The notes beneath the pieces are model-generated. The model was not told the origin of the DNA. It ran no database searches and worked only from the letters and a program-made list of their open reading frames with translations. A stretch of 64,000 bases of DNA from an uncultured Prevotellaceae bacterium. GTDB lineage: Bacteria; Bacteroidota; Bacteroidia; Bacteroidales; Muribaculaceae. Both the position numbers and the translations under genes were made by a program. Positions 11,601 through 64,000 of the stretch are shown here, in pieces. The stretch lies in assembly GCA_900319525.1 (NCBI GenBank), contig ONOU01000006.1, positions 50,692 through 114,691 on the forward strand, in the 5' to 3' direction. Positions within the stretch are counted from its first letter, which is position 1, and the number at the start of each line of letters is the position of its first letter.

Positions 11601-12062
11601 TGTGGCGCTAACGTTGCCAATGGCAACAAGTCGGTGTCAATCGCTTACCCGCTGACCAACCTGACCGATGGCTTGCATACGCTCACCTATACCGTATATG
11701 ATATGCTGGGCAACAGTGCCACCCGCACCATTTCGTTCCTGGTAGGGCATGCATCAAGTGTTGACATCGTTGCAGACAAGTCGCCCGCGATGATCAACAA
11801 TCCGGTGAATTTTGACTTGCAGGCCAGCGGAATGCTGCATCCTGAGGTGACCCTGCGCGTGACCGATGCGACAGGTAAACTTGTGTGGATGACCACGACC
11901 GACACCTTCCCCGTCAGCTGGGACATGAAGGACATGGATGGCAACAAGGTGCCGGCGGGCCTGTACCGCTACTTCGGCTCCTATAACGATGGCGTGAACT
12001 ATGGTGGCACTCCCATCAACAAACTCATCGTTCTTGAGCCTGTCAAGACGGCCCGAAAGTAA
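8613..12062 (+). CDS. PorU-like C25 family peptidase, copy 3
   Basis: This third tandem paralogue has 1149 aa and begins 71 bp after copy 2. It has a signal peptide (ending GHAGA), the PorU-like N-terminal domain (GKWVKVMVPESGVYEITYDE), a C25 peptidase domain with YVGHAGSVSLTKYNK and SLACCDVAHFDN, Ig-like repeats and the same C-terminal segment (DMDGNKVPAGLYRYFGSYND). All catalytic positions are retained. It differs from copies 1 and 2 mostly in the N-terminal half and in the Ig-like region near residues 830-920, where it carries a short insertion (PYGRSSTVLTSMLRVY). No terminator is visible between copies 2 and 3, so they may be co-transcribed. The role is inferred as cell-surface proteolysis or sorting. 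Confidence 0.87.
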   Translation: MLKLNKLQLACVILMAVLCAGHAGAFDTSKYASQSKLATGKWVKVMVPESGVYEITYDELRKMGFDNPSQVHVYGHGGNRISEVLNGKAVDDLKAVPILRVNDKICFYGNGPVAFTMSEYMSVPHYTRVFNPYSQEGCYFLTEESTPDVVPMRKAVPSVSSYVNTASSMSFYYHERDLMSAASSGKEMLGEDFARNQLLVDYYLPQLSDSTLVLQTALAANVLETSYANAVLHSGNGTDTTAYPEASSVLYMPLENVYYNVASPSAAIKLSHPQQRGQFEPILKNSSGTNSALLARLDYFILTYKHHNILVGMPDNQMLMGYAMTSGKERLMLPYATSSTVVWFINNTQSPMVVPTTAYNEGNTHGLSFFANPISYATYVAFDPAKTLKKISRYEPVANQNLHGMPEPDLLIIASTAFKEQADRLADMHRAIDGITVAVVTQDQVFNEFSSGTRDAMAYRLLCKMLYDRDNVKFKNLLLFGTGSFDNRELMGSHPNDLLTYQSDESNILEQSYTSDDFFGMLADNSGANLAADKLSIGVGRITCVDVDEARSDVDKIIDYYANPDYGVWRNNTIVSSDSPDGGMYMFQAQGYKDLIEGSLNTGMHVNTVHDSMYPRSPNEPTYAVERKTATEAKQRLSYLLKDGAYFATYVGHAGSVSLTKYNKMWTISDVANTSYPYYPIMSLACCDVAHFDNTTRGIAELMFHKRDGGAIALLTSARMVSAMPNNQLNRNFINALFSYDRTGVMPTVGEAYKEAKLSFVGADMNKLSFFLLGDPAMRVNYPTPRFNITSVNGTDVTDTLNAEVYPLCRFEIKAQVVDGQGNVDRSFNGDATATLYGHENLFTTLSNIMGTEEREIYMDRTKLAEISGRVENGLFTGSMIAPRVPYGRSSTVLTSMLRVYAHKDSSDCMVNGVTKQIIMLPYDESKVIEDNEAPVITAMYLNEESSFGEGAVVSPNTMLYINVTDNEGINVQANSPSSSMKLSLDDGKASFGDILCGANVANGNKSVSIAYPLTNLTDGLHTLTYTVYDMLGNSATRTISFLVGHASSVDIVADKSPAMINNPVNFDLQASGMLHPEVTLRVTDATGKLVWMTTTDTFPVSWDMKDMDGNKVPAGLYRYFGSYNDGVNYGGTPINKLIVLEPVKTARK

Positions 12063-12163
12063 TATCCTGGAAGAGTATAATTCCCGTGAGCATGTCTCCC
12101 TTGTTGCTCTTGTGGTTTTAAACACTGTGTAACTGAAAAACTATATACAATTAATAATATTAT

Positions 12164-13948: not shown

Positions 13949-14014
13949 TCCATCGGTAGTTGGCATAGTTTTTGCAACTAAAAACCAAGAACTGAAAACT
14001 AACAACTAAAAGAC

Positions 14015-14743
14015 ATGAACAATTGGAATAATAACTTCGAGAACGGCTATCAGACTGCCGCTCAAGCTGAGAATTCGCTGACGCTTCAGCGTTATGTCGC
14101 TGGCGTGATGCGCAAGGTGTATGGAAAGATGACATTGGGCCTGTTGGCTACTGCTCTCACGTCCTATCTGATGCTGTCCAGCCCGGCTTTGTTGACCATG
14201 CTGTTCAGTAGCACATTCTCAATTTGGATCTTGTTTGCCGTCGAATTGGGCCTGGTTATCTACCTGAGTGCCCGCATCGACAAGTTGAGCACGGGCACCG
14301 CCACCGCCTTGTTCTATGCCTACAGTATCTTGAATGGTGTGTCGTTAACCCCCATCTTCCTGGTATATACTGGTGTGTCGATTGCCACGACCTTTGCGAT
14401 TACGGCAGGCACTTTTGGCGCCATGACCATTTTCGGTTATGTGACGCGTCAGGATTTGTCCAAGATCGGCTCCTTCCTGATCATGGCCCTGTTTGGTCTC
14501 ATCGTGTGCGCTCTGGTGAATCTCTTCTTCCGGAATACGATGTTTGAACTGCTCATCAGTTGCGCCGGTGTGCTCATCTTTGTGGGCCTTACCGCTTGGG
14601 ATACTCAAGCCATTAAGCGTATGAGCGCCGAGGCCGACCCTTCGATGGTGGGCAAGATTGCCACGATGGGCGCTCTGACCCTCTATCTCGACTTTATTAA
14701 CTTGTTCCTGTATCTGCTGCGCTTCTTTGGCAACCGCGATTGA
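14015..14743 (+). CDS. Bax inhibitor-1/YccA family membrane protein
   Basis: This 242-aa protein has about seven hydrophobic segments. The order is a polar N-terminus (residues 1-30), then the conserved VAGVMRKVYGKMTLGLLATALTSY entrance to helix 1, followed by regularly spaced helices and the terminal LTLYLDFINLFLYLLRFFGNRD, the closing signature of Bacteroidales BI-1 family members. Family members are membrane proteins linked to Ca2+ leak or, in bacteria, to interaction with the FtsH protease (YccA). The specific function here is unknown. A 15-bp hairpin ends the transcript just downstream. The leader carries an AACTAACAACTA string also found before the Dabb gene near 37.9 kb. Confidence 0.9.
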   Translation: MNNWNNNFENGYQTAAQAENSLTLQRYVAGVMRKVYGKMTLGLLATALTSYLMLSSPALLTMLFSSTFSIWILFAVELGLVIYLSARIDKLSTGTATALFYAYSILNGVSLTPIFLVYTGVSIATTFAITAGTFGAMTIFGYVTRQDLSKIGSFLIMALFGLIVCALVNLFFRNTMFELLISCAGVLIFVGLTAWDTQAIKRMSAEADPSMVGKIATMGALTLYLDFINLFLYLLRFFGNRD

Positions 14744-14768
14744 CCGGTCAGGAACGGTATTTGGATAA

Positions 14769-14810
14769 CAAACGGCCCCAGCTGCATCAACACTTAGCTG
14801 GGGCCGTTTG
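14769..14810. terminator. Bidirectional terminator between convergent genes
   Basis: A perfect 15-bp inverted repeat (14769-14783 with 14796-14810; CAAACGGCCCCAGCT and its complement) has a 12-nt loop. It lies between the BI-1 family stop (14743) and the GH3 stop (14831). AAA/TTT ends on both sides suit termination in both directions. Confidence 0.85.
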
Positions 14811-14830
14811 CTGTATATGGCGTGTAAACG

Positions 14831-17104
14831 TCAGCGCAGGGTGAATTGCTTGCGCTGGACGTTGCGGCTGTCGGTACCTATCATGACCTCAAAGTCGCCA
14901 GGCTCGCAAACGTAGTCAAGGTCCTTGTTGTAGAACTTGAGCAGGTCGGCGTCGATGGTGAAGGTCACCTGACGGCTCTCGCCCGGCTTGAGGTTGATGC
15001 GCTCAAAGCCCTTGAGCTCCTGTACGGGACGGGCAATGCTGCCTACCAGGTCGCGGATGTAGAGCTGGACGACCTCGGCGCCCTCGCGGCTGCCCGTGTT
15101 GGTAACGGTGACCGATGCCTGGATGCTGCCGCTAGCGCTCATCGAGTTGCTGCTCAGGGTCATCGGGCTGTAGTTAAATGTCGTGTAGCTCAGGCCGTAA
15201 CCGAAGGGGAACAGCGGCTCGTTGGGCACGTCCAGATAGTTGGAGGTGAACTTGGTGAACCACTTGGGGTTGGGACGCCCTGTGTTCAGGTGGTTATAAT
15301 AGACAGGAACCTGACCAACGCTACGGGGCATGGTGGCCGAGAGCTTGCCGCTGGGCGACACGTCGCCAAAGACCACGTCACAGATGGCATCAGCGGCCTC
15401 GCTACCGCCAAACCACACGTTCAGGATGGTGGGGATATTCTCGACCTCCCAGTCCATGACGGTAGTGCGTCCCGAGAAGTTGAGCAGCACAATGGGCTTG
15501 CCGGTGGCCAGCAGGGCCGTGAGCAGGTCCTTCTGTGCATCGAGGATCGTGAGTTCGCTGCGTGAGCTGCTCTCGCCCGACATCTCGCTGGGCTCGCCCA
15601 TGGCGGCGACAATCACGTCACACTCGCGTGCGATGCGCAGGGCCTCGTCGCGCATGACGTCAACCGGGCGCTCGTCGCGCATCTCGCGGCCAAACATCGT
15701 CGAGTTCTTCTCCAGTTCGGCATCATAGCAGACGTTGCACCCCTTGGCATACATCACCTCGCCACGATCTCCCACGGCGCGGCGCATGGCCTCGAGCAGC
15801 GTGCTGTAGCGGTCGCTGGCGGCGGCCACGCTCCAGGTGCCGGGCATGTTGGCGCGGGTGTTGGCCAGCGGGCCCACCAGGGCGATCTTGGCCGTGCGTT
15901 GCAGCGGCAGCACGTTATCCTTGTTCTGCAGCAGTACAAAGGTTTCGGTGGCCAGCTTGCGTGCGGCGGCACGATGCTCGGCCGTGTAGATTTCCTTGCT
16001 GGCACGCTTGCTGTCCAGGTAGCGGTAGGGATCGTCAAACAGGCCCAGCTTGTACTTGGCTTCCAGAATGCGGCGGCAAGCCTTATCGATGTCGTCGATG
16101 GTCACCTTGCCCTCGTCCAGCGATTTTTCCAGTGTTCCCAAGAAACCGTCGGCCACCATGTCCATGTCGGTACCCGCGTTCAGGGCAAGTGCCGAGACCG
16201 TCTGCAGGTCGCCCATGCCGTGGTTGATCATCTCGCTGATGGCGGTGTAGTCGGTCACGACAAAGCCGTCAAATCCCCAGCGGTCCCTCAGCACCTCGGT
16301 CATGAGCCAGCGGTTGCCCGTGGCGGGGATGTAGTCAATGACGTTGAACGAGGTCATGAAGCTGCCCGCTCCGGCATCGACGCCTGCCTTGTAGGGCGGG
16401 AAATACTCGTTGAACATGCGCACGTGGCTCATATCGACAGTATTGTAGTCACGGCCAGCCTCGGGGGCGCCATAGAGGGCAAAATGCTTCACGCAGGCCA
16501 TCATCGATGTCTTGTCGGCCAGGTCAGCACCTTGATACCCCTCAATCATGGCGCGGCAGATGGCAGATCCCAGAAACGGGTCCTCGCCGTTGCCCTCGCT
16601 CATGCGTCCCCATCGGGGCTCGCGGCAGATGTCCACCATGGGGCTGAAGGTCCAGCAGATGCCATCGGCAGTGGCTTCGATCGAGGCGATGCGGGCCGAG
16701 TTGCGGATGGCCTCCATGTCCCAGCTCATCGACATGGCGAAGGGGATGGGGAAGACGGTCTCATAGCCGTGAATCACATCCATGCCGAAGATAAGCGGAA
16801 TGCCCAGCCGGCTCTGCTTGACGGCGACTTCCTGCAGCTGGCGAATGCTCTTCACCCCCTTCATGTTGAACAGGCCGCCCACCTGTCCTGCCTTGATCTT
16901 GCCGACCACGTCGCCACTCACCGTGGAACCGGTGATGATGTCGCCGGTGACGGGGAGGTTGAGTTGTCCGATTTTCTCTTGCAAGGTCATCTTGCCCATC
17001 AGGTCATCGATGAAACGGTCCATCCTGGCCTGGTCCACGGCCTGTGCAGCCATCGAGATGCTCACGAGGGCCATGGCCAATAAATAAATTCTCATTCTTG
17101 TCAT
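14831..17104 (-). CDS. GH3 family beta-glucosidase, secreted
   Basis: This 757-aa exo-acting retaining beta-glucosidase of the BglX type probably releases glucose from the non-reducing end of oligosaccharides in the periplasm. A signal peptide ends near SMAAQA. The N-terminal GH3 domain includes GMDVIHGYETVFPIPFAMS, RWGRMSEGNGEDP and KHFALYGAPEAGRDYN. The catalytic nucleophile Asp is in GFVVTDYTAISEM (about residue 285). The GH3 C-terminal domain has GEPSEMSGESSSRSELTI, containing the likely acid/base Glu. A fibronectin-III-like domain closes the protein (about residues 660-757). ATG at 17104 or 17095 is possible. It is the last gene of the susC-started minus-strand PUL, 238 bp after the GH144-like gene. 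Confidence 0.93.
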   Translation of the reverse strand: MTRMRIYLLAMALVSISMAAQAVDQARMDRFIDDLMGKMTLQEKIGQLNLPVTGDIITGSTVSGDVVGKIKAGQVGGLFNMKGVKSIRQLQEVAVKQSRLGIPLIFGMDVIHGYETVFPIPFAMSMSWDMEAIRNSARIASIEATADGICWTFSPMVDICREPRWGRMSEGNGEDPFLGSAICRAMIEGYQGADLADKTSMMACVKHFALYGAPEAGRDYNTVDMSHVRMFNEYFPPYKAGVDAGAGSFMTSFNVIDYIPATGNRWLMTEVLRDRWGFDGFVVTDYTAISEMINHGMGDLQTVSALALNAGTDMDMVADGFLGTLEKSLDEGKVTIDDIDKACRRILEAKYKLGLFDDPYRYLDSKRASKEIYTAEHRAAARKLATETFVLLQNKDNVLPLQRTAKIALVGPLANTRANMPGTWSVAAASDRYSTLLEAMRRAVGDRGEVMYAKGCNVCYDAELEKNSTMFGREMRDERPVDVMRDEALRIARECDVIVAAMGEPSEMSGESSSRSELTILDAQKDLLTALLATGKPIVLLNFSGRTTVMDWEVENIPTILNVWFGGSEAADAICDVVFGDVSPSGKLSATMPRSVGQVPVYYNHLNTGRPNPKWFTKFTSNYLDVPNEPLFPFGYGLSYTTFNYSPMTLSSNSMSASGSIQASVTVTNTGSREGAEVVQLYIRDLVGSIARPVQELKGFERINLKPGESRQVTFTIDADLLKFYNKDLDYVCEPGDFEVMIGTDSRNVQRKQFTLR

Positions 17105-17342
17105 AATGGTTGATATGCTTGGATTGATTGATAATGCTGACTGTTACCACCTCGCAAAGGTAGGCAATTATCTTGAGGGGACTTCTATAAATTACCCAAA
17201 AGATAGTTTTTAGTGTTGTTGGATGTCTTTGGCCGCTTTTCGGCATCTTTTGTCTTTCCTTCTTGGACCATAGCCTGCTATGCTCCTGCGAAGTCAAGTC
17301 AAAATCTGCTCAAAAATCAATCCAAATCCATTCCAAGCTAAT

Positions 17343-18728
17343 TTATGGAAGTCCCCTTGAAACCTCAAAGCCCAGCTTCGCGAGTCCCTCTTGTACCTCG
17401 GGGCAACTCATGAACAGGCGCCACAGCAGCCCCGTGCGGTAGTTCTCGATCATCGGGGCGATGGTGCACTGGTCGATGGCCAGGTAGCGAGGCAATGTCC
17501 ATCCGCTGGCGGGGCTGAAGGCGTCATAGAAGCCATACTTGCCCCAGATGCTCTCGCCGCGGCTGTAGAAGCCCCTGAGGGCCGCCATCGACTGCTCAGG
17601 CGTGTAGGGGAACGACGACAGTGCCGCCGTGGGCGTGATCACGCCCAGGTCATTACCAGGGCTGTGAGCCGAATAGCCGTCTGTCGAGTAGCTGGCGGTC
17701 AAGCCCCAGCAGTCGGGGCCGTAGCCGCTGTAGCCCTTGGGATTGTCGATGCAATACCGGTAGTTGCTCAGCGCGTGGTTGCGCACCACATTCCAGTAGT
17801 CGGCATACTGGTCCTTCAGGCCTCGCGGGTCCAGGCCAAACCAGCTGTAATGTGCCCAAAAGAGCGGACCGCCCGTCTTCTCGGCGCCGTTGTGCTTGAG
17901 TTCCAGCGGATAACCATAAGGAGCCGCATCACTCTTGATGCCGCCACTTCGTGCCCACCCCTTGTGGTAGCACGAGGCGGGTACAGTGTGGGTGGGCGAG
18001 GCCGCTGCCAGCACATACACGATGAGACACTCGTTGTAACCCTCAAGCGGGAAATTCATGTCCCACTCATACTGGGGCGACCAGTGCCAGTAGATGACAT
18101 CCTGACCGCCGCGGGTGTACCAGTCAAATTCCATGTCCTGCCACAAGGCATTGATGCGGCTCACCAGGTCTCTCTCGGCTGCAGTGTCGCGGTTGAGGTA
18201 TTGGCGGGCGCACAGCAGTCCCTGCATCAGGAAGCAGCTCTCCACCAGGTCGCCACCGTTATCCTTTTGGCCAAAGGGTTTCACCTTGCCCGTGGGGCCG
18301 TACAACCAGTGCGGCCACACGCCGTGGAAGCGGTCGGCCCGTTCCAGGAAGCCCACGATGCGTTTCAGCCGCTCGATGCCCTGGTCGCGCGTGATGAAGC
18401 CGCGCTCCATCGCCACCACGAGGCCAGCGATGCCAAATCCGCTGCCACCCGTGGTTACCACGTCCTGATCATGCTCGGGGTATTGCCCGTCCAGATGGAT
18501 GCGCTCGCGCGCCAGTCCTGACGTGGGTTCAGCGCCATCCCACATATAGTTGAAGTGCACGCGCTCGATGTAGTCGAGCATCGCATCGTCGTTCTTGAAC
18601 GATGATGGGCGTTGCCCGGTTGACGGGGGCGTCGGTTCCTCGTTGTGGACATTGCTGCCGGTTTTGCATCCAGCAATTGTTATCAGCAGGATGAGCAGTG
18701 ACAGCGGCTTGAAGATGGTCGTGTTCAT
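17343..18728 (-). CDS. GH144-like / glycoamylase-like domain lipoprotein (probable beta-1,2-glucanase)
   Basis: This 461-aa lipoprotein has the lipobox ITIAGC (Cys21), a short polar linker, then one alpha/alpha-barrel domain of the 'glycoamylase-like' type. It begins with FNYMWDGAEPTSGLARERI and contains TTGGSGFGIAGLVVAMERGF, GVWPHWLYGPTGKV, YEWDMNFPLEGYNECLIVYV, GPDCWGLTASYSTDGYSAHSPG and FYDAFSPASGWTLPRYLAIDQ. These segments are typical of the Bacteroidota family that includes GH144 endo-beta-1,2-glucanases and sophorose-releasing enzymes. The family placement is from memory of the signature, so substrate is an inference. It is 10 bp downstream of the GH43-like gene and upstream of a GH3 beta-glucosidase, a logical chain for beta-glucan breakdown at the outer membrane. 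Confidence 0.82.
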   Translation of the reverse strand: MNTTIFKPLSLLILLITIAGCKTGSNVHNEEPTPPSTGQRPSSFKNDDAMLDYIERVHFNYMWDGAEPTSGLARERIHLDGQYPEHDQDVVTTGGSGFGIAGLVVAMERGFITRDQGIERLKRIVGFLERADRFHGVWPHWLYGPTGKVKPFGQKDNGGDLVESCFLMQGLLCARQYLNRDTAAERDLVSRINALWQDMEFDWYTRGGQDVIYWHWSPQYEWDMNFPLEGYNECLIVYVLAAASPTHTVPASCYHKGWARSGGIKSDAAPYGYPLELKHNGAEKTGGPLFWAHYSWFGLDPRGLKDQYADYWNVVRNHALSNYRYCIDNPKGYSGYGPDCWGLTASYSTDGYSAHSPGNDLGVITPTAALSSFPYTPEQSMAALRGFYSRGESIWGKYGFYDAFSPASGWTLPRYLAIDQCTIAPMIENYRTGLLWRLFMSCPEVQEGLAKLGFEVSRGLP

Positions 18729-30674: not shown

Positions 30675-30683
30675 CGTGCTTTG

Positions 30684-31080
30684 TGGAGCTGGAGGGGTTT
30701 GAACCCTCGTCCAAACGTGGAACTAATAAGGTTTCTACATGCTTAGTCTTGGCTTGGTTTTCGACCGCCGGCAGGCCCAAGACGACCAACCGGTGGCTTA
30801 TCCTCTAAATTTCGGACTTGGCCCGAGGCTTGCCTTGTCCTATCGCCGATATTCCTGCACCACCGTTTCAACCCGCCTCGGCGCGAGGGCAGTTGGGTGA
30901 TGTCTCGTCACTGCCCCTTGGGCAGCGATAAAGCCGAACTTACTGTTCTTCGGTTAGGCAGCGAGAGCGTAGTTGTTTTCGCCATTTAATTGTGTCAATG
31001 ACTGATATTTAAGAGCATAGCCATTATCGCTCTGCATGCTTGCTTACCACCTCTACACGCTGTCAAAGCCAGTCAGCCCC
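30684..31080 (-). ncRNA. ssrA: Transfer-messenger RNA (tmRNA)
   Basis: tmRNA rescues stalled ribosomes and tags the incomplete protein for degradation. On the minus strand the RNA begins GGGGCTGACTGGCTTTGACA, a typical tmRNA 5' end, and ends with the T-arm GGTTCAAACC and acceptor strand CAGCTCCA. The seven-base acceptor stem pairs GGGGCTG with CAGCTCC (one G-U). The tag frame lies at 30954-30983: the resume codon GGC and following codons read GENNYALAA and then TAA, the Bacteroidales tag type. A CCA end is not encoded. Length is about 397 nt. It has its own promoter upstream and terminator downstream. Confidence 0.95.
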
Positions 31081-55028: not shown

Positions 55029-55102
55029 GGTCCTATAGCTCAGTTGGTTAGAGCACCTGACTCATAATCAGGGAGTCCTTGGTTCAAGCCCAAGTGGGAC
55101 CA
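55029..55102 (+). tRNA. tRNA with CAU anticodon (Met elongator or lysidine-modified Ile2)
   Basis: All cloverleaf arms pair. The acceptor is GGTCCTA/TGGGACC (one G-U), the D arm AGCTCAGTTGGTTAGAGC, the anticodon stem CCTGA/TCAGG with loop CTCATAA (anticodon CAT), and the T arm CTTGG-TTCAAGC-CCAAG. Discriminator A102; CCA is not encoded. CAU can be elongator Met or Ile2 after lysidine modification by TilS; the body resembles some Ile2 tRNAs, but I cannot decide. A terminator hairpin follows at once. Confidence 0.93.
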
Positions 55103-55110
55103 CAATAAAC

Positions 55111-55141: not shown

Positions 55142-55185
55142 TTTTTGTTCGTTCGTTCGTTTGTTCGTCGGGTATGTGCGTGCTG

Positions 55186-58100
55186 TTACGCCGTTTGAGG
55201 GGTGATGACACCGTGGATGGTGTCGATGTACTTGGCGAGGGGCAGCATATAGGGTGTGAAGACTGACAGCCGCTCGTCAAACGGGGCTTCGTTGACAACA
55301 ATCTCTTTGGTGATATCACCGTTCTCGCACACATAGGCGATAATGGTATTCAGGAAGTCCTCTTGCTCGGCATTCAACTCGTTGCCTGAAATGAACTCTG
55401 AGAAGCGTCTAACCGCATTCTTGCGGTCAACCCCTACCAATGAACGGACAAACATGGCAACATTGCCGCCACAGGGCATCCCTGCGGTGAACTTGTCGTA
55501 GTCATCTTTGCTACCGAGTTCTTGCCACAAGATTCGTTCAAGTTCGGTGAAGTCGGCTGCTGTCAGTTGCTCCATATCGTAGATCTTTTGGAGTACGGGC
55601 AGGTTTCTGTTCTTCGACAGGAAGTCCAATACACTCTGCTTGTAGGACACACGAGGTGTAATGCCTTCCATCGTGCCCTCGTCGCTGATTTCGTCCTCGA
55701 TGTCCACGGTGAACCATTGACCACCTTGACCAATGAGGAACTTGATGAGGTCTCTCAGGTCGTTGCGGACCTTTTCAAGCCATTTGAGTGACACGTTCTG
55801 CCAAGCGACATCAGTCAATACTTCCTTGATGGTGCCCATCTTGGCTTGTACCTGTGGCAAGGTGGCTTTCTCTTGCAGTTTCTCGGCAATCGTTTGAACC
55901 GAATGCACCGCTTTGGTGGCATTGCCCTCACCACCAATCAGCGACAATTCAATCAGCATCACCAACAGGTCAAATTTCTTGGCACTCTCGTCGAGGGTGT
56001 TCTTGGGCAGCAAGGGTGCGATGACATTGCTCAATGTGTTGACATCAACTTCCGAAATGTATGTCCATGAGTCGTTGTCCTTGAAGTGGCTTACGTCAGC
56101 CCATCTTTCCCTTACTGAGATGTGGCTGTCACTGAGCGATGCGACCTGTTCTTTCAACAGCGTCTTGATTTCGTCGTGCAGCCCCCGGGCATACTCATCT
56201 TCTTGCCATTGCTGATGCTGCAAGTGGAACGCTATCTTAGCCCGAATACTGAAAATCTTCTCGGTCAACGACGGTGCAACGGCTGCTGTCTGACCATCAG
56301 GATTCTTGTCGAAATACTCGAAGTTCCTGCACCAATCAAAGATGTAGAAATACTCCTTGTCTTTCCCAGGCCCGAAGATGCCCTGTGACAGACGTGTGCC
56401 TCGACCAATCATCTGCATGAACTTGATTTTACTCTTGACCACCTTAAAGAACACAAGGTTGAGCACATCGGGCACATCAATGCCCGTGTCAAGCATATCG
56501 ACCGAAACGGCTATCTGCGGGTTGCCGTCCCTGATTTCGAACTTGTCGATGAGGTCTTTTGAATAGGTGACATAGTTGTCGATAAGGGCACAGAAGTCTG
56601 ATGAGTATTCAGGGTATAAGTAGTAGAACCGCTCGACAATCATCTCGGCGTGGCGGTGGTTGTAGGCAAAGATGATCGTCTTGCCTATGCGCTCTCCGCT
56701 CTGCACCTTCAGACCGTTCTCCATCAGGTCTTGCAGCACACGGTCGATGGTGTCGAGATTGAAGATGTAGTTGAATATCTCCTTGGTCTCGATGTCTCGG
56801 GGTTGGGGGTCGCCTTCAATGGCCTTGATGGCCTGCTCATACTCCCACACCTTCTCGAGCTGTTCCTTTTCCTCGGCGCTCAGGTTGTTGTACTTGATGC
56901 CCTCTTTCAGGATGAGTGATCCACGCTTGAAGCCCTTGTAGTTGACAAGGTAACCCTCGGCCACAGCATCCTCCAATTCATAGGCATAATTGGGCACGCC
57001 CTGTTCCATTTGGAAGGTCTCGTAAGTGCTCTTATCCACCTCGTCTCTTGGTGTCGCGGTCAAGCCCACCAGCAGAGCGTCAAAGTAGTTGAAGATGGCC
57101 GAATACTTGCCAAAGATGCTGCGATGAGCCTCGTCAATGATAATCAGGTCAAACCGCCCTACACTGAAGGCTTTCTCGTCGGTGTCGATGTAGTTGATCA
57201 TCGTCTGATAGGTCGAGAAGGTGATGCGGGCATTGGTGTCAGGGTCTTTATCCTCGCTCAGGATTGAGGTGGTCATGTGGGGCAGCAACTTCACAAAATT
57301 CTTATGTGCCTGACTGACCAACGGAATCCTGTCGGCAAGGAACAGGACGTTCTTCACCCATCCGTTACGGGTCAACACGTCAACAAGCGAAATAGCGACT
57401 CGTGTCTTACCTGTACCTGTAGCCATCACCAACAAGCCTCGACGATGCTTGGTATTGAAGTGCTCGCACACCGATTTAATCGCCATTTTCTGATAATGGC
57501 GGTCAGTGATGCTGTCCTTCACACTGAAGTCGGTAATGTCGTGTCGTTTTCTTTTTTGGATGAGCAGTTCCAGGTCGGCCTCGGTGTGGAAAGCGAACAA
57601 CTTGCGGGGAGGGTAGCCCAGCCCGTCAATGATATGGGTCTCAAAGCCGTTGGTATAGTAGATGACGGGTCTCACCCCATATCGCTGTTCCAGGCAGTCG
57701 GCATACAGTTCGGCCTGGTGTTTGCCCTTGACGGGCGACACGCTCGTCCTTTTGGCCTCAATCACGGCAAGGGGCAGACCGTTGCTGCCGAACAGCACAT
57801 AATCGCAGAAGCCCTTGCCCTCATTGTTGGGCATTCCTTCAACCTCGACCTCTATGCAAGCCTTTGAGGGCTGTATTGCACCTTCGGTGTCCAACACATC
57901 CCAACCTGCCTCTTTCAGCATCAGGTCAATATAGAGTTTGCGGGTCTCGGCCTCCGATATGTCCGATGCCACTTCCACCACGGGGGTCTTGTCGGCAACG
58001 GCCTCTTTGTCGGCCGCCTCGACGATGGTCGATTGCGGGGTCACCGCTACCTTGGCAGGAGTGATGACCGATGCTTGGGGACTGTTGGGAATCAGGTTCC

Positions 58101-58500
58101 TGTCAAACGGAACGACCTCCTTGATAAAGGTCAGTTTGTGCAGCACGGCGGCCACCACATTATAGAGGTTGAGCAGGCAGAAGAACGACTCGCCCCGGGT
58201 GACTTTCTTGTTGTGAGCGCCGTTGTTGCCCACCTTGCGCACATAGTGCACCGCCTTCATCACCCGCTCGTCGCCAATGAACTCACGGAAAACCTCGCCA
58301 TCCACCAGTTCAAACAGGGACACCCGCTCGGGCACATCGATATGCTTCATCACATAGAGCGCCCTGACGATATACTCCAGCGCCTTCCTCGCACTGATGG
58401 CACTCAGTTCAGGATTGCTCACCTGCATCTCCTCGGCCGCCGAGCAGAAGTTGTGCAGGTCACTCAACCCCAATTCTTGTAGATAGTCGAAGTTCCTCAT
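55186..58500 (-). CDS. hsdR: Type I restriction endonuclease subunit R (DEAD/DEAH translocase)
   Basis: HsdR is the nuclease-motor subunit of a type I restriction system. The 1104-aa protein opens with a DUF4145-like helical domain (about 15-125, AISARKALEYIVRALYV, VGNNGAHNKK). The PD-(D/E)xK nuclease follows (Asp233 in GFCDYVLFGS, Glu248-Ala-Lys250 in VIEAKRTS). The helicase/translocase domain has Walker A MATGTGKTR (359-367), DEAH (456-459) in LIIIDEAHRSIFG, LVGLTATPRD and MIGRGTRLSQ. The C-terminal third is the helical HsdR region. It starts 3 bp after the hsdS stop, so the two are translationally linked. Length and residues are intact, so the nuclease looks functional. Confidence 0.94.
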   Translation of the reverse strand: MRNFDYLQELGLSDLHNFCSAAEEMQVSNPELSAISARKALEYIVRALYVMKHIDVPERVSLFELVDGEVFREFIGDERVMKAVHYVRKVGNNGAHNKKVTRGESFFCLLNLYNVVAAVLHKLTFIKEVVPFDRNLIPNSPQASVITPAKVAVTPQSTIVEAADKEAVADKTPVVEVASDISEAETRKLYIDLMLKEAGWDVLDTEGAIQPSKACIEVEVEGMPNNEGKGFCDYVLFGSNGLPLAVIEAKRTSVSPVKGKHQAELYADCLEQRYGVRPVIYYTNGFETHIIDGLGYPPRKLFAFHTEADLELLIQKRKRHDITDFSVKDSITDRHYQKMAIKSVCEHFNTKHRRGLLVMATGTGKTRVAISLVDVLTRNGWVKNVLFLADRIPLVSQAHKNFVKLLPHMTTSILSEDKDPDTNARITFSTYQTMINYIDTDEKAFSVGRFDLIIIDEAHRSIFGKYSAIFNYFDALLVGLTATPRDEVDKSTYETFQMEQGVPNYAYELEDAVAEGYLVNYKGFKRGSLILKEGIKYNNLSAEEKEQLEKVWEYEQAIKAIEGDPQPRDIETKEIFNYIFNLDTIDRVLQDLMENGLKVQSGERIGKTIIFAYNHRHAEMIVERFYYLYPEYSSDFCALIDNYVTYSKDLIDKFEIRDGNPQIAVSVDMLDTGIDVPDVLNLVFFKVVKSKIKFMQMIGRGTRLSQGIFGPGKDKEYFYIFDWCRNFEYFDKNPDGQTAAVAPSLTEKIFSIRAKIAFHLQHQQWQEDEYARGLHDEIKTLLKEQVASLSDSHISVRERWADVSHFKDNDSWTYISEVDVNTLSNVIAPLLPKNTLDESAKKFDLLVMLIELSLIGGEGNATKAVHSVQTIAEKLQEKATLPQVQAKMGTIKEVLTDVAWQNVSLKWLEKVRNDLRDLIKFLIGQGGQWFTVDIEDEISDEGTMEGITPRVSYKQSVLDFLSKNRNLPVLQKIYDMEQLTAADFTELERILWQELGSKDDYDKFTAGMPCGGNVAMFVRSLVGVDRKNAVRRFSEFISGNELNAEQEDFLNTIIAYVCENGDITKEIVVNEAPFDERLSVFTPYMLPLAKYIDTIHGVITPQTA

Positions 58501-58503
58501 AAT

Positions 58504-59675
58504 TTATCCAAAGTATTTATCCATCGTGTAGTCAAACATCGTTTGTGTCTCATCAATGGACTGTTGAACAAGTGCCTTTTGCCGCTCAATCGCCTCAACC
58601 TTTTGAACATAGTCTTTTTGAAGTTGCAATGGTGGTACGATTACCTTAGTTTTTTTAGCATTGGTGATTGTGTAAGTTCCTACTACGGCTGCATTTGCAT
58701 TGCCCTGTATTTGGCCCATAACAAACGGTGTTGCATATTGGTCTTTAATAAATCTTGATTCACAAAGACCCTTACTTTTGAACCACAATATATTACCATC
58801 TTTGAAGTAGAACCTGTCCTCGGCCTTGACTATATAGCAAACACCAAGTGTTCCTACCGCTGTAACCATAATATCTCCTTTTGACGGAACACCATATTTT
58901 CCTGCATATTCGCTATACAATTCTTCCGAAACAAATATAGGTGAATCAATTGGCTCATTTTGGGCGAATTTCACAATTTCTCTTGCTCTATAAAAGGGAA
59001 TACCTTCGTTTTGCCATTGAGATTCAAAAACTCTTTTACTTGAACCAATATCAAATAACTCAACCATACACTTGGTTTCCCATCCTTTGGGATTGTCGAT
59101 GGGGTCGCCAAACATCGTGTAGAAGATGGACTGTGCGAGTTGGTCGTAGGCTTTGAGTTGTTCTTTCTTCTTCTCGATGATGCCCTGTAGCAAGTCAAGT
59201 TCCGCAACAATCCGCTCCTGCTCCCCAATCGGCGGCACTGGAATTGGGATTTGTTCTGTGGTTCTCTTTGAAATCTCTTTAAATGTTGCACCCCTGCCCA
59301 ATGAGTTTAGGTAGTCAACTTTTCCAAAAGATACCAATAAACAAATTCGTTAAGAAGAAGATTAGAACAAATAATATTCTTGAACCCTTGATTACAATAC
59401 ATAGGTACAGTAGTGATTGCAACTTTTCCAATAGGAGCACGAGATGACAATAGTACTGTTCCAGTTGGGAGTAATTGAAGGTTGGTTTTTTGTACGGCCA
59501 AATCAGTTATTGTTCGAGGAGTTGCACCTTGATATTTATTGCCATTCAAGTCGGCAGGTGTAACCCAATAATTTGTGCCTCCCCAATACTCTTCAATATT
59601 TGATTTTGGGGTGCTACCTCCAACAATAGTTGCGACCTCTCCCAGTTTCTTATATGTCCAGTCTTGTTTGTTCAT
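58504..59675 (-). pseudogene. hsdS: Type I restriction specificity subunit HsdS, frameshifted
   Basis: HsdS sets the DNA target of the R and M subunits. The first part (start MNKQDWTYKKLGEVATIVGG, ATG 59675) covers target recognition domain 1 and stops at LLEKLTT near 59307. The second part, in the -1 frame, carries on as VDYLNSLGRGATFKEIS, the central conserved helix (PIGEQERIVAELDLLQGIIE), recognition domain 2 and the terminal helix VEAIERQKALVQQSIDETQT. Adding one base to the A run (minus strand; T run at 59320-59323 on the plus strand) gives an unbroken YWYLLEKVDYLNSLG, the expected family sequence. So a one-base deletion, a phase-variable run or a sequencing error splits an otherwise complete gene of about 390 codons. 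Confidence 0.88.
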
Positions 59676-59695
59676 CGGTTGTTTGTCGTTTGGTG

Positions 59696-59703
59696 CAAAG
59701 TTA
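59696..59703 (-). promoter_or_regulatory. -7 promoter box before hsdS
   Basis: On the minus strand TAACTTTG fits TAnnTTTG; the -33 box is weak (AATG). A start point near 59689 excludes the upstream in-frame start at 59708 and supports ATG 59675. Confidence 0.55.
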
Positions 59704-59751
59704 CACATTTATGTTTGAATGGCATTGTTTCGCAGTGGAATAATGTGCAAT

Positions 59752-59772
59752 AAAAAAGGCAGTGCCCCTTTT
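59752..59772 (-). terminator. Short hairpin terminator before hsdS
   Basis: On the minus strand AAAAGG-GGCACTG-CCTTTTTT forms a 6-bp stem with a T run. It lies downstream of the small ORF ending at 59840 and would separate it from hsdS. Confidence 0.45.
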
Positions 59773-59839
59773 GTCGAGAGCACCGCCGATGCAGGGCTGT
59801 ACGTCCGTCCGTTCGTACGGACGTACGGACGAATCAATC

Positions 59840-60061
59840 TTAAGGCTTGTTTACCGGCTCGGTCGTTTCCTCCCAGTCACCAATCTTGCAAACACCGGTG
59901 ACGGGCACCTCGAAGGTGAACTTCACCGCTTTGCCGTTCTTGAGATTGTGTACCGAAATGGTCTTTACCTCACTTTCGCTGTCGATGTTGATGTGAATGC
60001 CGGTGACAATGCAGTCGGCGAGCAGGTCAACTAATTGTTTTAAACTCATTTTCTTTTTCAT
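59840..60061 (-). CDS. Small ORF of unknown function (69-73 aa)
   Basis: The predicted protein (MKKKMSLKQLVDLLADCIVT at the start; ATG 60061 or 60049) has an amphipathic first helix and then beta-type segments (VKTISVHNLKNGKAVKFTFE, VTGVCKIGDWEETTEP). It has no known motif, no signal peptide and no transmembrane helix. It lies between the ATPase gene and hsdS on the same strand. Its codon composition is like its neighbours. It could be an antitoxin-like or structural accessory protein, but nothing in the sequence decides this. Confidence 0.5.
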   Translation of the reverse strand: MKKKMSLKQLVDLLADCIVTGIHINIDSESEVKTISVHNLKNGKAVKFTFEVPVTGVCKIGDWEETTEPVNKP

Positions 60062-60110
60062 GGTAAGTGATAAATTTAAAAGTGAATGGAAATTTATATA
60101 ACGTACAGGC

Positions 60111-60216
60111 GAACGAACGAATGAACGGATGAAAGGGTAGGAGTGTTAGTGACAGGATTGAAATTGTTGTGTCAAAACTATCGATGACACAATTTCATCC
60201 GTTCATTCGTTCGTTC
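60111..60216. repeat. 24-bp perfect inverted repeat enclosing a smaller inverted repeat
   Basis: Bases 60111-60134 are the exact inverse complement of 60193-60216. The arms contain GAACGAACGAATGAACGG-type tetranucleotide runs. Inside the loop TTGTGTCA (60167-60174) pairs with TGACACAA (60185-60192). An AATTTATATA copy flanks each side (60091-60100 and 60217-60226). It occupies the gap between the ATPase stop (60229) and the small ORF start (60061). Confidence 0.8.
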
Positions 60217-60228
60217 AATTTATATATA

Positions 60229-61314
60229 TTATAGCGGACGAACGGACGAAACGTCGGCTGCTGCCCTCTTGAGCCTTACCCTTGTCCTGTCCACCTCTTC
60301 GAGCCACCCTGCTGCCAGGGCCTGCTTGATGAGTTCGTAGCAACGGGTTCGCTGGAACGGGTGCTTCTCGGTCAGTTGCTCAACGATGTCGCTGCGCCTG
60401 ATGGGGGTCCCGTCCTGCGGAATGACGGCAGCAAGAATCTCCTTCACCTGCTGCTCGCTCTTTTGCTTCTCGAGCTGCATCTGGCGATGGAGGTCGGCTG
60501 CACCGTCCTTAGGGATGCCGTTCTCGTCGAGTTTGAAAACCAGTCCTTCGCTCTGGCGGTGGCGCGACACGGGATGGGTGACGAGAAATATCTCGCCGTG
60601 CTTCTCGACCTGGAACACATCGCTGCACTTTTGATAGAGCATGGTGCCGATGTGTCCCTTCATCATCTTGTCGTGGCTGCTCTTGTTCTGGTGCATGACC
60701 ACCACGATGCAGCAGTTATGCTTGTTGGCGAGAGCAGCCAGTTTGTTAACCATGTCCTGGCTCTCGGTCACGTCGTTGTAGTTGTAGATGAGGTCGGCAA
60801 TGCCGTCAACGATGACCAGGTCGGGGCGCTCGATCTCGATGGACTTGCGCACAAACTCATAGCGGGAAAGATCATCTCCCTCGTCATAACTGTCGATATC
60901 GGCATCACGCAGACAGCAGACCTCGATGTCGCCATGCCTGTCCTCGGGGATGATGGCCTGGATGGTCTTGAGGATGCGGGCACTGTCGTTCCTCGCCTGC
61001 TCGGTGTCGATGAATTGCACCTTGCCCTGCTTGATCAGGTTCTCGCAGTTGAGAAAAACGTCGGAGCCCAGAAAGATGGCGCTCAGGATGTCGCAGAAGA
61101 ACGTCTTGCCGTTTTTCCACTTGGCGCTCACCGCAACCAGGTTGCCCTTGGGCAGGGTGGGCACGTCACCGATGCGGATGAGGTAATCGGGGTCGGGATA
61201 ATCGACGTTGCCATCGATCACATACTTCTCTTTGATGCTGGTGAATTCTTTTACGGCCTGTTCCTCGGCCAGCAGGCGGGCTTGCCAACTGTCTTCTAAT
61301 GATGTGTCATACAT
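60229..61314 (-). CDS. RecA/KaiC-like AAA_25-type ATPase (mobile-element RepA-like)
   Basis: This 361-aa cytoplasmic ATPase has a variant Walker A AKWKNGKTF (64-72) in AVSAKWKNGKTFFCDIL, a Walker B DLVIVDGIADL (Asp170), and a hexameric-helicase-like sensor region CIVVVMHQNKS. The C-terminal 60 residues form a winged-helix-like segment (RRSDIVEQLTEKHPFQRTRC). Proteins of this kind are replication helicase loaders or RepA helicases on plasmids, prophages and integrative elements of Bacteroidota. Here it lies between the HUH-type gene and the small ORF, with its own promoter (61373-61405). No other replication or conjugation gene is visible. A defence or regulatory role inside the R-M locus is possible but unproven. 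Confidence 0.82.
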   Translation of the reverse strand: MYDTSLEDSWQARLLAEEQAVKEFTSIKEKYVIDGNVDYPDPDYLIRIGDVPTLPKGNLVAVSAKWKNGKTFFCDILSAIFLGSDVFLNCENLIKQGKVQFIDTEQARNDSARILKTIQAIIPEDRHGDIEVCCLRDADIDSYDEGDDLSRYEFVRKSIEIERPDLVIVDGIADLIYNYNDVTESQDMVNKLAALANKHNCCIVVVMHQNKSSHDKMMKGHIGTMLYQKCSDVFQVEKHGEIFLVTHPVSRHRQSEGLVFKLDENGIPKDGAADLHRQMQLEKQKSEQQVKEILAAVIPQDGTPIRRSDIVEQLTEKHPFQRTRCYELIKQALAAGWLEEVDRTRVRLKRAAADVSSVRPL

Positions 61315-61372
61315 GATAAAAAAGATTTAAAAATTAAACAAAAGTGAATTGTGTATCTCATGTTTCAGGCTG

Positions 61373-61405
61373 CAAAGATAAGGTAAAAATACCATATTTT
61401 GCAAG
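61373..61405 (-). promoter_or_regulatory. Promoter of the AAA_25-type ATPase gene
   Basis: On the minus strand CTTG (61402-61405), 21 nt, TATCTTTG (61373-61380), about 60 bp before the ATG at 61314. Confidence 0.7.
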
Positions 61406-61481
61406 AAAAATGGCGAGAAATTTGTAAATTACCAATAAATTACCGAATACGGTGGTTTTTTAATGAGTTATAGGGTAGGGG

Positions 61482-62627
61482 TTATCTCAAGATGGTGGCC
61501 TTGCCGTTGAATGTGCATATCTCGGCGGCAAGATGGTTCATGTTGTGGAAACGGCTGTAGTCGGTGTCGGCAGGCACGCCGTTGACGCCCGCCATTGCGT
61601 CGAGTCCCCAAGGTGCCAGGATGAGCAGGCTGCCGTTAGCGCAGGCCTCAAATCTCAGGCGCTCGGGTTTCCAATAGGCAGTAATCGGTTCTTTCTGGAT
61701 ATGGATGAGGGGATAGCCGTTCTTGAGACATTCGTTTTTCATCATCAGTTCGCCCTGTGAGATGCCGGGGGTGACAATCACGGTGGCCCCGCCGACGATG
61801 GCGTCCACCCATTGCTGATGCTGCCGCGCATAGTCGGCCGTGCCCTCGTAGGGCTCCCTCGTGACGGGATGCAGGCGGTGGCATTGCACTTGCACCTTGC
61901 CCGGCCACCGCAGCAAGAAGAGATTGCCGAAGGTGCCGTAGTCGCGCCCTGCAATCTGGACGTGAAGGCTGCGCTGCATCAGCTGGGGAAATGCCCGGCG
62001 CAAAATGGCGCGGCGCGGATTGTCGTGGACGTAGGCGATCATCGCCTGGCGGTGGCGCTGGTCGAGGCACACCGTGTCGTCGTAATTGTCGTCGAACAGC
62101 GGCCGCTGCTCCCTGCCCACCAGGGTGTAGTACTCCTGGCGCTGCCGCTTGGACATGGCACGGATGAGGGCGCCCTCGTTGTCGTGGAGGCGGGCCTTCT
62201 CGCGCAGCCATGCGGGGGCTTGCGGGCCGCTACATTCGACCGATATCGGGCGATTAAAGGAATGTCCCCGCCCCTGTTGCCGCTGCCAGTGGCTGGTGCA
62301 TGCCGCCTTAAAGGCCTGCATGATGTCGCCCAGGCTCCATTGCATGGGCTCCAGCACTTCAAGCACGCCGTGGAAATGGTCGGGCATGCACACGCAGGCG
62401 AGTACCGCCACACGATTGCCATGAGCCGCTTGCCGGTCGGGTATTGTTTCCCACGCCTGCTTCACCGCCTCACCCAGTGGTGAGAGCGTGATTTGGGGGT
62501 GCCTGGCATCATCGCCCAAGCGTCCAAGCAGCGGCAACCGTTCGCTCACCACCAGGGTGATGAGATAGGTTCCCTGGCCGTAATAGTCGTGGCCGGGATT
62601 GCGGGGGCGATAGGATGTCTCGATCAT
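61482..62627 (-). CDS. HUH (Y1/RAYT-like) transposase with Rossmann/SLOG-like C-terminal domain
   Basis: This 381-aa protein begins with an Y1_Tnp-type HUH domain related to REP-associated tyrosine transposases: the metal-binding pair His84-Phe-His86 in CMPDHFHGVLEV and the likely nucleophile Tyr199 in MIAYVHDNPRRA. The N-terminal YGQGTYLITLVV is the usual first strand. Residues about 277-340 add a glycine-rich Rossmann-like unit (VGGATVIVTPGISQGELMMK, GSLLILAPW) that recalls DprA/SLOG nucleotide-binding folds; this part is inferred. It starts with ATG 62627, 2 nt after the hsdM stop codon, so it is translationally linked to hsdM. No flanking inverted repeats or target duplications are seen, so it does not look like a recent insertion. 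Confidence 0.82.
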   Translation of the reverse strand: MIETSYRPRNPGHDYYGQGTYLITLVVSERLPLLGRLGDDARHPQITLSPLGEAVKQAWETIPDRQAAHGNRVAVLACVCMPDHFHGVLEVLEPMQWSLGDIMQAFKAACTSHWQRQQGRGHSFNRPISVECSGPQAPAWLREKARLHDNEGALIRAMSKRQRQEYYTLVGREQRPLFDDNYDDTVCLDQRHRQAMIAYVHDNPRRAILRRAFPQLMQRSLHVQIAGRDYGTFGNLFLLRWPGKVQVQCHRLHPVTREPYEGTADYARQHQQWVDAIVGGATVIVTPGISQGELMMKNECLKNGYPLIHIQKEPITAYWKPERLRFEACANGSLLILAPWGLDAMAGVNGVPADTDYSRFHNMNHLAAEICTFNGKATILR

Positions 62628-62629
62628 TG

Positions 62630-64000
62630 CTACAGGTACTTCTCCTTGAACTCGGCCATTGCGTCGTTGATGTCCTGTTGCAGGGTGGCTATCTTGCCGA
62701 AGATGACCTCGGGGGCCTCGTATTCCACCTTGACACGCTCCACTTCCTTGTACTTGTTGATGCTGAGGTCGTAGTCGTTGTCACGGATTTCCTCGACGGG
62801 GACGAGGAACGATTGTTCCTTGCGTGTCCTTGTCGCCTCGGCATCCATGTTCTTGAAACGGGCTATCACGTCAGGAATGTCATTCTCTGTGCACTCGGTG
62901 CGCTTTTGGTCAAGGGTATAGCCATCGGCTTTCATGTCGTAGAACCACACCTTGTCAGTGCCTCCTGCGTTGGTCTTGGTGAACACAAGAACAGCAGTGG
63001 AAACTCCTGAATAGGGTTGGAACACACCTGATGGCATCGAAATTACCGCTTGCAGCCGTTGGTTGTCGATGAGTTCTTTTCTCAATGCTTTGTGAGCGGT
63101 ACTGTTGCCGAACAATACACCATCAGGAACGATGGAGGCGCAACGGCCACCCATTTGCAGCATACGGATGAACAGGCTGACAAACAGCAATTCAGTTTTC
63201 TTGGTCTTGGTGATGGCAAGCAGCGACTTGCTCACCGCCTCATTGTCGAGGCTTCCTGTGAAAGGAGGATTTGCCAAGCAAAGCGTATATCTGTTCTCGT
63301 CGGTGTTGTCGGTCGAGAGGCTGTCCCGATATTGGATGTCGGGATTGTCAACCCCGTGCAGCATCAGGTTCATTGCACCGATACGAAGCATCGTGAAGTC
63401 GGTGTCGAAGCCGTGCAGCATCTCGTTCTTGTAGTGGTGGGCATTTTCCTTCTTCAACAGTTCGGACTTGTAATGCTCCCGCACATACTTGGCACTCTCG
63501 ACGATAAAACCCGCACTACCCATAGCAGGGTCACAGATGGTGTCCTTCAAGGTGGGCTGCATAATTTCAACCATCATACGGATGATGTGTCGAGGTGTAC
63601 GGAATTGACCGTTGTTGCCCGAAGCCGCCATCTTGCTGAGCACATACTCATAGACATCGCCCATCGTGTCACGGTTGTTCATGTCAAGATGGTCGATACC
63701 CTCGACAATCTTGGTGAGGGTTCGGGGGCTTTGAATCAGGAAGGTCGCATTCTCCATGAAACGGCTGTAAGCCGATTCCTTGCCGCTGCTCAGGTTCTTG
63801 ATGAACACAAACACGTCCTTGCTGACGATGCGGTACATCGTCTCGGGGTCATAGTTTTTGAACGTGCTCCATCGCAGGTCTTCGTAGGGCACGTTGCGGT
63901 CAGTCTCAGGATTGTGCCACGACCCATAGCCGATAGTCGGCTCAGACACTGCCACACCCATAGCGTTGGCATTGGCTTCCTTGGTGCGCTGTGCATCGTC
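62630..64000 (-). CDS. hsdM: Type I DNA methyltransferase subunit M (5' end outside window)
   Basis: HsdM is the N6-adenine methyltransferase that protects host DNA. The frame is open to the window edge (residues before 63961 read AQRTKEANANA), so the start is beyond 64000; 456 residues are visible. SAM-binding motif I is DPAMGSAGFI and the catalytic motif IV is LANPPF in ENRYTLCLANPPFTGSLD. Other conserved parts are GNNGQFRTPRHIIRMMVEIM and GRCASIVPDGVLFGNSTAH. The C-terminus (ATLQQDINDAMAEFKEKYL) is the helical end that contacts HsdS. The HUH-type gene follows at 2 nt. hsdS and hsdR lie about 3 kb further downstream, separated by accessory genes. Confidence 0.93.
   Translation of the reverse strand, partial: DDAQRTKEANANAMGVAVSEPTIGYGSWHNPETDRNVPYEDLRWSTFKNYDPETMYRIVSKDVFVFIKNLSSGKESAYSRFMENATFLIQSPRTLTKIVEGIDHLDMNNRDTMGDVYEYVLSKMAASGNNGQFRTPRHIIRMMVEIMQPTLKDTICDPAMGSAGFIVESAKYVREHYKSELLKKENAHHYKNEMLHGFDTDFTMLRIGAMNLMLHGVDNPDIQYRDSLSTDNTDENRYTLCLANPPFTGSLDNEAVSKSLLAITKTKKTELLFVSLFIRMLQMGGRCASIVPDGVLFGNSTAHKALRKELIDNQRLQAVISMPSGVFQPYSGVSTAVLVFTKTNAGGTDKVWFYDMKADGYTLDQKRTECTENDIPDVIARFKNMDAEATRTRKEQSFLVPVEEIRDNDYDLSINKYKEVERVKVEYEAPEVIFGKIATLQQDINDAMAEFKEKYL

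Follow-up and report, generated by a model that had tools for sequence, protein, structure and literature searches.

What is a HUH gene doing inside a type I restriction-modification (R-M) operon? The question is raised by a contig of an uncultured Prevotellaceae bacterium, ONOU01000006.1, of which we have analysed a stretch of 64,000 nucleotides (the window). On its minus strand the order, from open reading frames (ORFs) and Pfam matches, is (hsdM), the HUH gene (called Y1 throughout), an AAA_25 ATPase, an ORF of 73 amino acids, hsdS and hsdR. We consider it fairly probable that Y1 is a chromosomal RAYT-like HUH gene positioned at the hsdM/hsdS boundary, a recurrent yet separable member of R-M operons that has outlived some of them. 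Y1 (61482-62627, minus strand; 381 aa) is assigned as RAYT-like with a C-terminal alpha/beta domain from its ORF, predicted fold and motif alignment. The hsdM gene (62630-64000, minus strand) is a type I methyltransferase by Pfam (N6_Mtase 2.3e-68) and PADLOC (MTase_I 3.7e-165), open at its 5' end where the window and the contig both stop inside the gene. Its stop codon at 62630-62632 lies 2 nt from the Y1 ATG at 62627; ORF calls and Pfam bear out both the spacing and the minus-strand order given in the initial annotation.

Our sample of the genus comprised 150 genomes, 82 of which (the window's own included) have some match to Y1. Loci are numbered L and genomes G below. A close orthologue (74-90%) is present in 18 genomes besides our own, all of which were examined; the copy in G088 is broken. 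In nine of the 18 (G007, G015, G025, G035, G036, G044, G045, G072 and G087) Y1 is part of a type I R-M locus or borders one; in the other nine it lies away from R-M, and two of these (G083 and G069) carry an R-M locus elsewhere. The gene order of the window recurs in five of the 18 genomes (complete in L049, L051, L057 and L059, and in L048 as far as the contig end, which cuts the small ORF). The order is therefore not due to chance.

The orthologues can be compared site by site. Site A, which we take to run der, a coiled-coil gene, the island, tRNA-Met, WbqC and lepB, holds the form hsdM-Y1-AAA25-small ORF-hsdS-hsdR in L049, L051 and L057, and in L048 up to the contig end. At this site L053 has hsdM-Y1-hsdS-hsdR, L056 has Y1, the ATPase and the small ORF without R-M, and L050, L052 and probably L061 have Y1 alone. 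The R-M/Y1 island of L059 (~8582-18216), judged against the adjacent coiled-coil gene, has the opposite orientation to that found at this site in relatives. At site B, Y1 stands upstream of hsdM-hsdS-hsdR in L058 and alone in L055; in L058 (= L164) an hsdM leader flanks Y1 on each side, giving leader-Y1-leader-hsdM. Y1 is alone at site C in both L047 and L054. Elsewhere it follows hsdR by some 30 nt (L060), or lies between the hsdM and hsdS of another kind of R-M (L063, with an hsdM 31% identical).

Close relatives of hsdM were found in 20 of the 150 genomes, our own included, and nine of these carry Y1 intact, either within that R-M locus or next to it. In one of the 20 (L132) the locus is cut at a contig end. 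L135 (G083), at site A, contains at 7406-7705 a Y1 that lacks its middle, reduced to residues 1-60 and 340-381, together with a 72% ATPase, upstream of R-M; the hsdM and hsdR of that operon are each broken into two frames. L127, also at site A, has hsdM and hsdS contiguous with an ATGA overlap and without Y1, ATPase or small ORF, and represents the empty state. The initial annotation had stated that its genes would be passengers if hsdM, hsdS and hsdR were contiguous in sister strains and the HUH gene or the ATPase was found alone at unrelated sites. Both were observed, the former as contiguous hsdM and hsdS at the same site in L127 and the latter at the many sites where Y1 is alone.

A pattern scan over one genome per species (84,980 species) gave 188 relatives, the best 80 of which were kept. 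By their titles these 80 are nearly all metagenome-assembled genomes from Bacteroidales/Bacteroidetes, mostly of ruminant gut, and 14 of the loci are already among the 18 close ones (e.g. L148 = L063, L164 = L058, L138 = L047 and L139 = L050). R-M of the searched kinds is found beside Y1 in 14 of the 80, nine being genus loci and five new (L145, L153, L158, L160 and L203). In 11 of those 14 (L137, L140, L141, L142, L144, L148, L153, L158, L160, L202 and L203), as in the window, Y1 directly follows hsdM. The same holds for L245 of another family (below). The stretches examined of the remaining 66 loci lack R-M of the searched kinds, and seven of these have Y1 less than 1 kb from a contig end. 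Where there is an upstream ORF (61 loci) it is on the strand of Y1 in 49. Among the 120 immediate neighbours of lone copies (≤900 aa) metabolism leads in the Pfam families listed (25 of 87), and by our reading most are housekeeping genes. PADLOC matched 32 families at E ≤ 1e-15 in these 120 neighbours, none with more than two members among the 25 listed.

One site in this survey, where a GH92 gene precedes Y1 (L179, L182, L185, L188, L195, L197 and L200), has varied DNA after Y1 and appears to be a turnover site bordered by Y1. A type I-like R-M follows in L179 and L200, and a set comprising a PLD-helicase, AlbA_2 and an Eco57I-type methylase in L182, L195 and L197 (domains checked in L182). 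L188 has a RhuM-like gene, labelled by eye, and nothing of that kind was seen in L185. Away from this site, a DUF4007 gene lies downstream of Y1 in L155, and an Abi_2-like gene, just under the cut-off, in L212.

In 295 genomes sampled from the order, seven (including our own) match at E ≤ 1e-40, the other six belonging to four other families. L245 has hsdM (78%), Y1 (68%) and hsdS in that order. L246 has Y1, an hsdM of the M63 kind (71%), an ORF, hsdS and hsdR, and L066 has hsdM, two ORFs (Fic/RhuM-like by eye), hsdS, Y1 and hsdR. In L247 Y1 is inside a decayed R-M locus (HsdM_N 9e-17; T1R_D3-like 1.4e-13), and in L065 and L248 it occurs without R-M. Linkage to R-M is found in four of the six genomes, representing three families, and the hsdM-Y1-hsdS arrangement in at least two families. 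The further kinds of type I R-M beside or around Y1 are the M63 type (L148 and L246), the L066 type and the decayed one of L247. No Y1 match was found in 395 genomes sampled from the phylum except in our own genome. As controls, the same tblastn probes detected R-M at 0/20 loci of Y1 paralogues and at 0/20 fetched loci of wider AAA_25 relatives (from 21 such matches); the paralogue loci were hand-picked, and the control stretches, at 7-14 kb, do not reach the length of most Y1 loci (up to 21 kb). The suggestion that Y1 is unlike a random insertion is borne out by the several kinds of R-M, the several families and the 0/40 control loci with R-M.

The junctions are tight. The hsdM stop overlaps the Y1 ATG in L049, L053 and L245, and is 1-9 nt ahead of Y1 in the window, L048, L051, L057, L059, L063, L153 and L203; the gaps are longer in L158 and L160. 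At the other end, the Y1 stop overlaps the hsdS ATG in L148, and in the lone copy of L055 it overlaps a remnant of the hsdS start. Translational linkage had been claimed for the window; Y1 is a tightly packed operon member, and judging from the sequence it is presumably transcribed and translated together with hsdM.

Some lone copies of Y1 have R-M scars, which we counted only at the ends of Y1 and in the right order. L138 has an hsdM leader 33 bp upstream and 119 bp of hsdS leader (87%) downstream, and in L139 the head of hsdM is fused to its tail. In L151 an hsdM tail lies 8 nt ahead of Y1 (score 53, against a control maximum of 26), and L149 has a weaker scar (35 against 28). Scars are also present at the lone Y1 of L054 and L055. 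We did not count weak matches (E 4e-4 to 0.01) in L170, L176, L177, L188, L198, L215 and L216, one in L056 far from Y1, or further loci narrowly above the highest of 20 control scores; because 66 loci were scanned, some must exceed the top of 20 controls. The scars are consistent with loss of R-M and retention of the HUH gene, whereby Y1 would have stayed behind in several places after deletion of the R-M genes.

At seven R-M loci the ratio of nonsynonymous to synonymous substitution (dN/dS), relative to the window, is 0.10-0.145 for Y1, with 0.01-0.07 for hsdM and 0.04-0.06 for hsdR. For lone copies of Y1 it is 0.10-0.23 over 15 pairs of six copies, and 0.12 for L047 against L054, both at site C. 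Measured from the window, the six close loci have synonymous distances of 0.50-0.66 in Y1 and 0.28-0.56 in hsdM, and five of them of 0.44-0.62 in hsdR; at every close locus the divergence of Y1 equals or exceeds that of hsdM. The corresponding distances for L060 are 0.96 (Y1), 1.32 (hsdM) and 2.87 (hsdR). Protein distances of hsdM and Y1 are correlated over seven lineages (r 0.60; 34/5000 permutations as high) and over all 15 loci (r 0.92; 0/5000), as would be expected if in some lineages Y1 and R-M had long been inherited together. On a tree of 89 Y1 proteins, 19 of them R-M-linked, the R-M label must change at least 13 times, against a mean of 17.5 for shuffled labels (0 to 1 of 500 shuffles as low). 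At least seven of these changes are forced by well-supported branches, with some long rows unsure. The tree left out L064 (broken), L248 (29%) and loci that duplicate one of the 80 survey loci, and L179 and L200, with other R-M downstream, were labelled 'no'.

Several observations weigh against our main reading of Y1. Nine of the 20 genomes with a close hsdM lack Y1 at that locus (L126-L131, L133, L134 and L136), and a script check of ten R-M loci confirmed its absence. Nine of the 80 copies in the wider survey are broken, five into two pieces (L201, L203, which is in an R-M operon, L206, L207 and L215) and four by an internal stop (L175, L197, L199 and L200), so the gene is not always kept. 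A scar is present in only four of the 66 loci without the searched kinds of R-M (L138, L139, L151 and L149), most lone copies being traceless. The dN/dS of the lone pairs includes time spent beside R-M. The nine close loci show no correlation between hsdM and Y1 (r 0.26; 941/5000), and the correlations over lineages and all loci could also be expected from plain vertical descent of both genes. Taken together, a self-standing HUH gene whose bond to R-M is old, recurrent and repeatedly broken is favoured over either an accident or an obligate module. Given its recurrence beside R-M and its frequent retention without it, Y1 has the look of a genuine partner or lodger, though a separable one, rather than of a gene inserted by chance, and sequence does not separate partner from lodger.

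The Y1 protein has the fold and the key residues of a HUH enzyme. It is sub-threshold in Pfam Y1_Tnp (0.018), and its match to NCBIfam REP_Tyr_transpos (2e-10, 40.7 bits) is under the cut-off of 80. An AlphaFold2 model (predicted local distance difference test, pLDDT, 84.4; predicted template modelling score, pTM, 0.63) compared with the PDB by Foldseek matches IS200/IS605 TnpA with a best E of 5.8e-5 and the RAYT 4er8 at 2.2e-3. In an alignment of 60 members (the window plus 59 of the 80 survey loci, picked as intact) H84 and H86 of the HUH motif D83-H84-F85-H86 (62370-62381, minus strand) are invariant in 60/60. So is Y199 (62031-62033, minus strand), the presumed catalytic tyrosine in a Y-x-x-x-N-P motif that we compared with the Y motifs of PMC6006769. 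The C-terminal domain, residues 256-381 (126 residues; 61485-61862, minus strand), is alpha/beta (model pLDDT 88, pTM 0.76) and by our reading of the model Rossmann-like, much as the initial annotation had described. In L063 (= L148; Y1 at 9364-10458), where Y1 is embedded in R-M, some 21 residues of the conserved core of this domain are missing in frame.

A kinship of this domain with DprA/SLOG folds had also been proposed. The full-length model agrees, matching ShosA 8zva (prob 0.99, E 1.6e-3, with a poor superposition, root-mean-square deviation 21.7) and DprA (prob 0.77-0.89). The isolated domain had no PDB fold match at E ≤ 0.001, and DprA was absent among the 50 matches listed. Comparison of its profile with 12 DprA sequences by hhalign was not significant (prob 1.5-2.8%), the best hit of a PDB sequence profile search was only E 1.3, and Pfam SLOG/DprA gave 0 matches across the 60 members. 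Since the full model matches but the isolated domain and the profile comparisons do not, SLOG is a lead and not a finding; the model lends the identity weak support.

Are the ATPase and the small ORF part of the same unit? The ATPase (60229-61314, minus strand; 361 aa; Pfam AAA_25 5.7e-13) has close relatives (85-90%) in six other genomes of the 150. It always adjoins Y1 there, and R-M is present in five. The 73-aa ORF (59840-60061, minus strand), with no assigned function, is conserved beside the ATPase in relatives, with 58-84% identity across its full or almost full length in L049, L051, L056, L057 and L059. The pair is missing from L053 and L058. Wider AAA_25 relatives (51-70%; L106-L125) occupy many other chromosomal sites in the genus, where just one of the 20 fetched loci has a Y1 paralogue beside the ATPase. 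Among the plasmid and phage matches listed (10 of 18 plasmids and 10 of 15 phage records) the ATPase is found only at ~25-31% identity. The ATPase and 73-aa ORF are a second, separable insert between Y1 and hsdS. A single defence module of HUH gene, ATPase, small ORF and R-M, as initially suggested, is rejected because the parts occur apart: the pair is missing from L053 and L058, R-M from L056 and from all 20 wider ATPase loci, and both inserts from L127. No PADLOC model covers them (PADLOC-DB 2.0.0: 0 families at E ≤ 0.1 for each of the HUH protein, ATPase and small ORF).

The remainder of the operon is that of a type I R-M system, with hsdM, hsdS and hsdR in one operon. hsdS (58504-59675, minus strand; Pfam Methylase_S 8.1e-20 and 4.1e-18) is split between frames in this copy, with pieces at 59307-59675 and 58504-59337 and a frameshift, true or due to assembly error, near 59307-59337; relatives have intact homologues. 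hsdR (55186-58500, minus strand; 1104 aa) matches Pfam ResIII (8.7e-43) and EcoEI_R_C (7.4e-14) and PADLOC REase_I (4.9e-167). The initial annotation had placed the locus at 59675-64000, with the order right and hsdS and hsdR (55186-59675) outside it, and had included neither the hsdS frameshift nor the cutting of hsdM by the contig end. A tRNA-Met (55029-55103, plus strand) borders the island at site A, and alongside it beyond the island is what we take to be an mgtE-like gene on the plus strand. Between the ATPase and the small ORF lies an inverted repeat of 24 nt without mismatch (60111-60134 / 60193-60216). This repeat, ahead of the small ORF, is of the same kind as the matches to CGTTCGTTCGTTCG, which with ≤2 mismatches occurs as 10 partly overlapping matches in the 64-kb window (0.55 expected). 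All 10 are in or at the R-M island (55146-60248), in intergenic stretches or one gene end. Elsewhere in the window a tmRNA gene lies at 30683-31080, with the tag GENNYALAA.

Could Y1 be an active mobile element, an IS200-like single gene without TnpB that lands at stop/start junctions, the R-M operon being merely one target? The clade is found at many chromosomal sites and adjoins unrelated kinds of R-M, and in L058 Y1 precedes hsdM and is flanked by two copies of the hsdM leader. In addition our genome contains five further Y1 paralogues (30-44% by segment), one broken, lying by our reading beside ordinary chromosomal genes. Yet there is a single copy of this clade in the genome, with no near-identical copies, and there was no match among the plasmids of PLSDB and none among the pattern matches in viral contigs. 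The Y1-ATPase intergenic DNA is single-copy in our genome. A hairpin follows Y1 in some relatives, the search covering only the 170 nt after the gene, and the one candidate tested has 1 imperfect place in our genome against 9 for a control pattern, with no sign of a REP (repetitive extragenic palindromic)-like family. The recurrence of hsdM-Y1-hsdS, with divergence correlated over lineages, also argues against current mobility, and we regard this explanation as unlikely. At the opposite extreme, Y1 might be a neutral neighbour, trapped once beside hsdM and then passed on by vertical descent only. The clustering of the R-M label on the tree (13 changes against 17.5) is what descent alone would give, and the nine broken copies out of 80 fit too. 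The seven or more forced label changes (some long rows being unsure) and the differing kinds and positions of R-M do not, and the reading is already disfavoured by dN/dS of ~0.1-0.2, with 0.10-0.23 for the lone copies; it is very improbable.

A dedicated role in defence would have Y1, either by itself or along with the ATPase and the 73-aa ORF, working with R-M, for example on single-stranded DNA (ssDNA) arising from HsdR translocation or from phage or plasmid entry. Y1 is repeatedly embedded in several kinds of type I R-M, with frames coupled or closely spaced, and at the GH92 site (L179, L182, L188, L195, L197 and L200) and in L155 its neighbours are R-M or defence-like genes. Against this, R-M is common without Y1, as is Y1 without R-M, no PADLOC model matches, and the neighbours of lone copies mostly read as housekeeping genes with no PADLOC family above two members; we judge it improbable. 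A related proposal seems to us rather doubtful: that the clade, with a C-terminal domain binding ssDNA or a nucleotide, is a functional accessory subunit of Bacteroidales type I R-M, processing single-stranded ends or loops that arise as HsdR translocates along and cuts incoming DNA, and that it outlasts the loss of R-M because it also acts alone against or on incoming ssDNA.

We return to Y1 as a separable RAYT-like member of R-M operons, in a clade that is best read as domesticated. With a HUH motif and one tyrosine the protein would most likely nick and rejoin ssDNA, to go by its predicted active site, and the alpha/beta domain may bind ssDNA or a nucleotide. Retention of lone copies at low dN/dS suggests a benefit to the cell that could be independent of restriction. 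A clade found within R-M operons, and left after the loss of R-M, gives a concrete handle on what RAYT-like enzymes are selected for. A DNA enzyme that is not part of R-M can thus reside for long periods inside an R-M operon, and lone genes serve as fossils of lost restriction systems.

How does Y1 compare with known systems? RAYT-like HUH enzymes are established as widespread and domesticated, and most have no known function (e.g. PMC6006769). That paper classifies them and describes C-terminal extensions, HTH-like ones among others; its main text nowhere mentions DprA. In the titles and abstract openings among the open-access matches listed, no HUH/RAYT gene inside a type I R-M operon is described. 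Like RAYT/TnpA_REP, the window protein has a core of HUH plus a single tyrosine, matches the 4er8 fold and REP_Tyr_transpos (2e-10), and is of a kind that is low-copy and absent from the plasmid collection. It differs in falling under the NCBIfam cut-off, in its much greater length (381 aa) and alpha/beta C-terminal domain, in recurring in R-M operons, and in that no REP family was found for the one hairpin tested. The TnpA proteins of ISDra2 and IS608 are the closest PDB folds to the model, but in contrast to IS200/IS605 elements Y1 has no near-identical genomic copies, and there was no TnpB-type Pfam match among the seven window proteins scanned, no wider search having been made. DprA/SLOG proteins such as ShosA resemble Y1 in the alpha/beta domain and in the full-model matches, and differ in that the isolated domain has no confident match and its profile comparison is not significant. 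Finally, type I R-M systems with accessory ORFs share the presence of extra genes between hsd genes, as do relatives that lack Y1 (L127, L128, L129, L136 and others). What sets the present operon apart is that the extra gene encodes a HUH enzyme, and that more than one family has this gene at the hsdM/hsdS junction.

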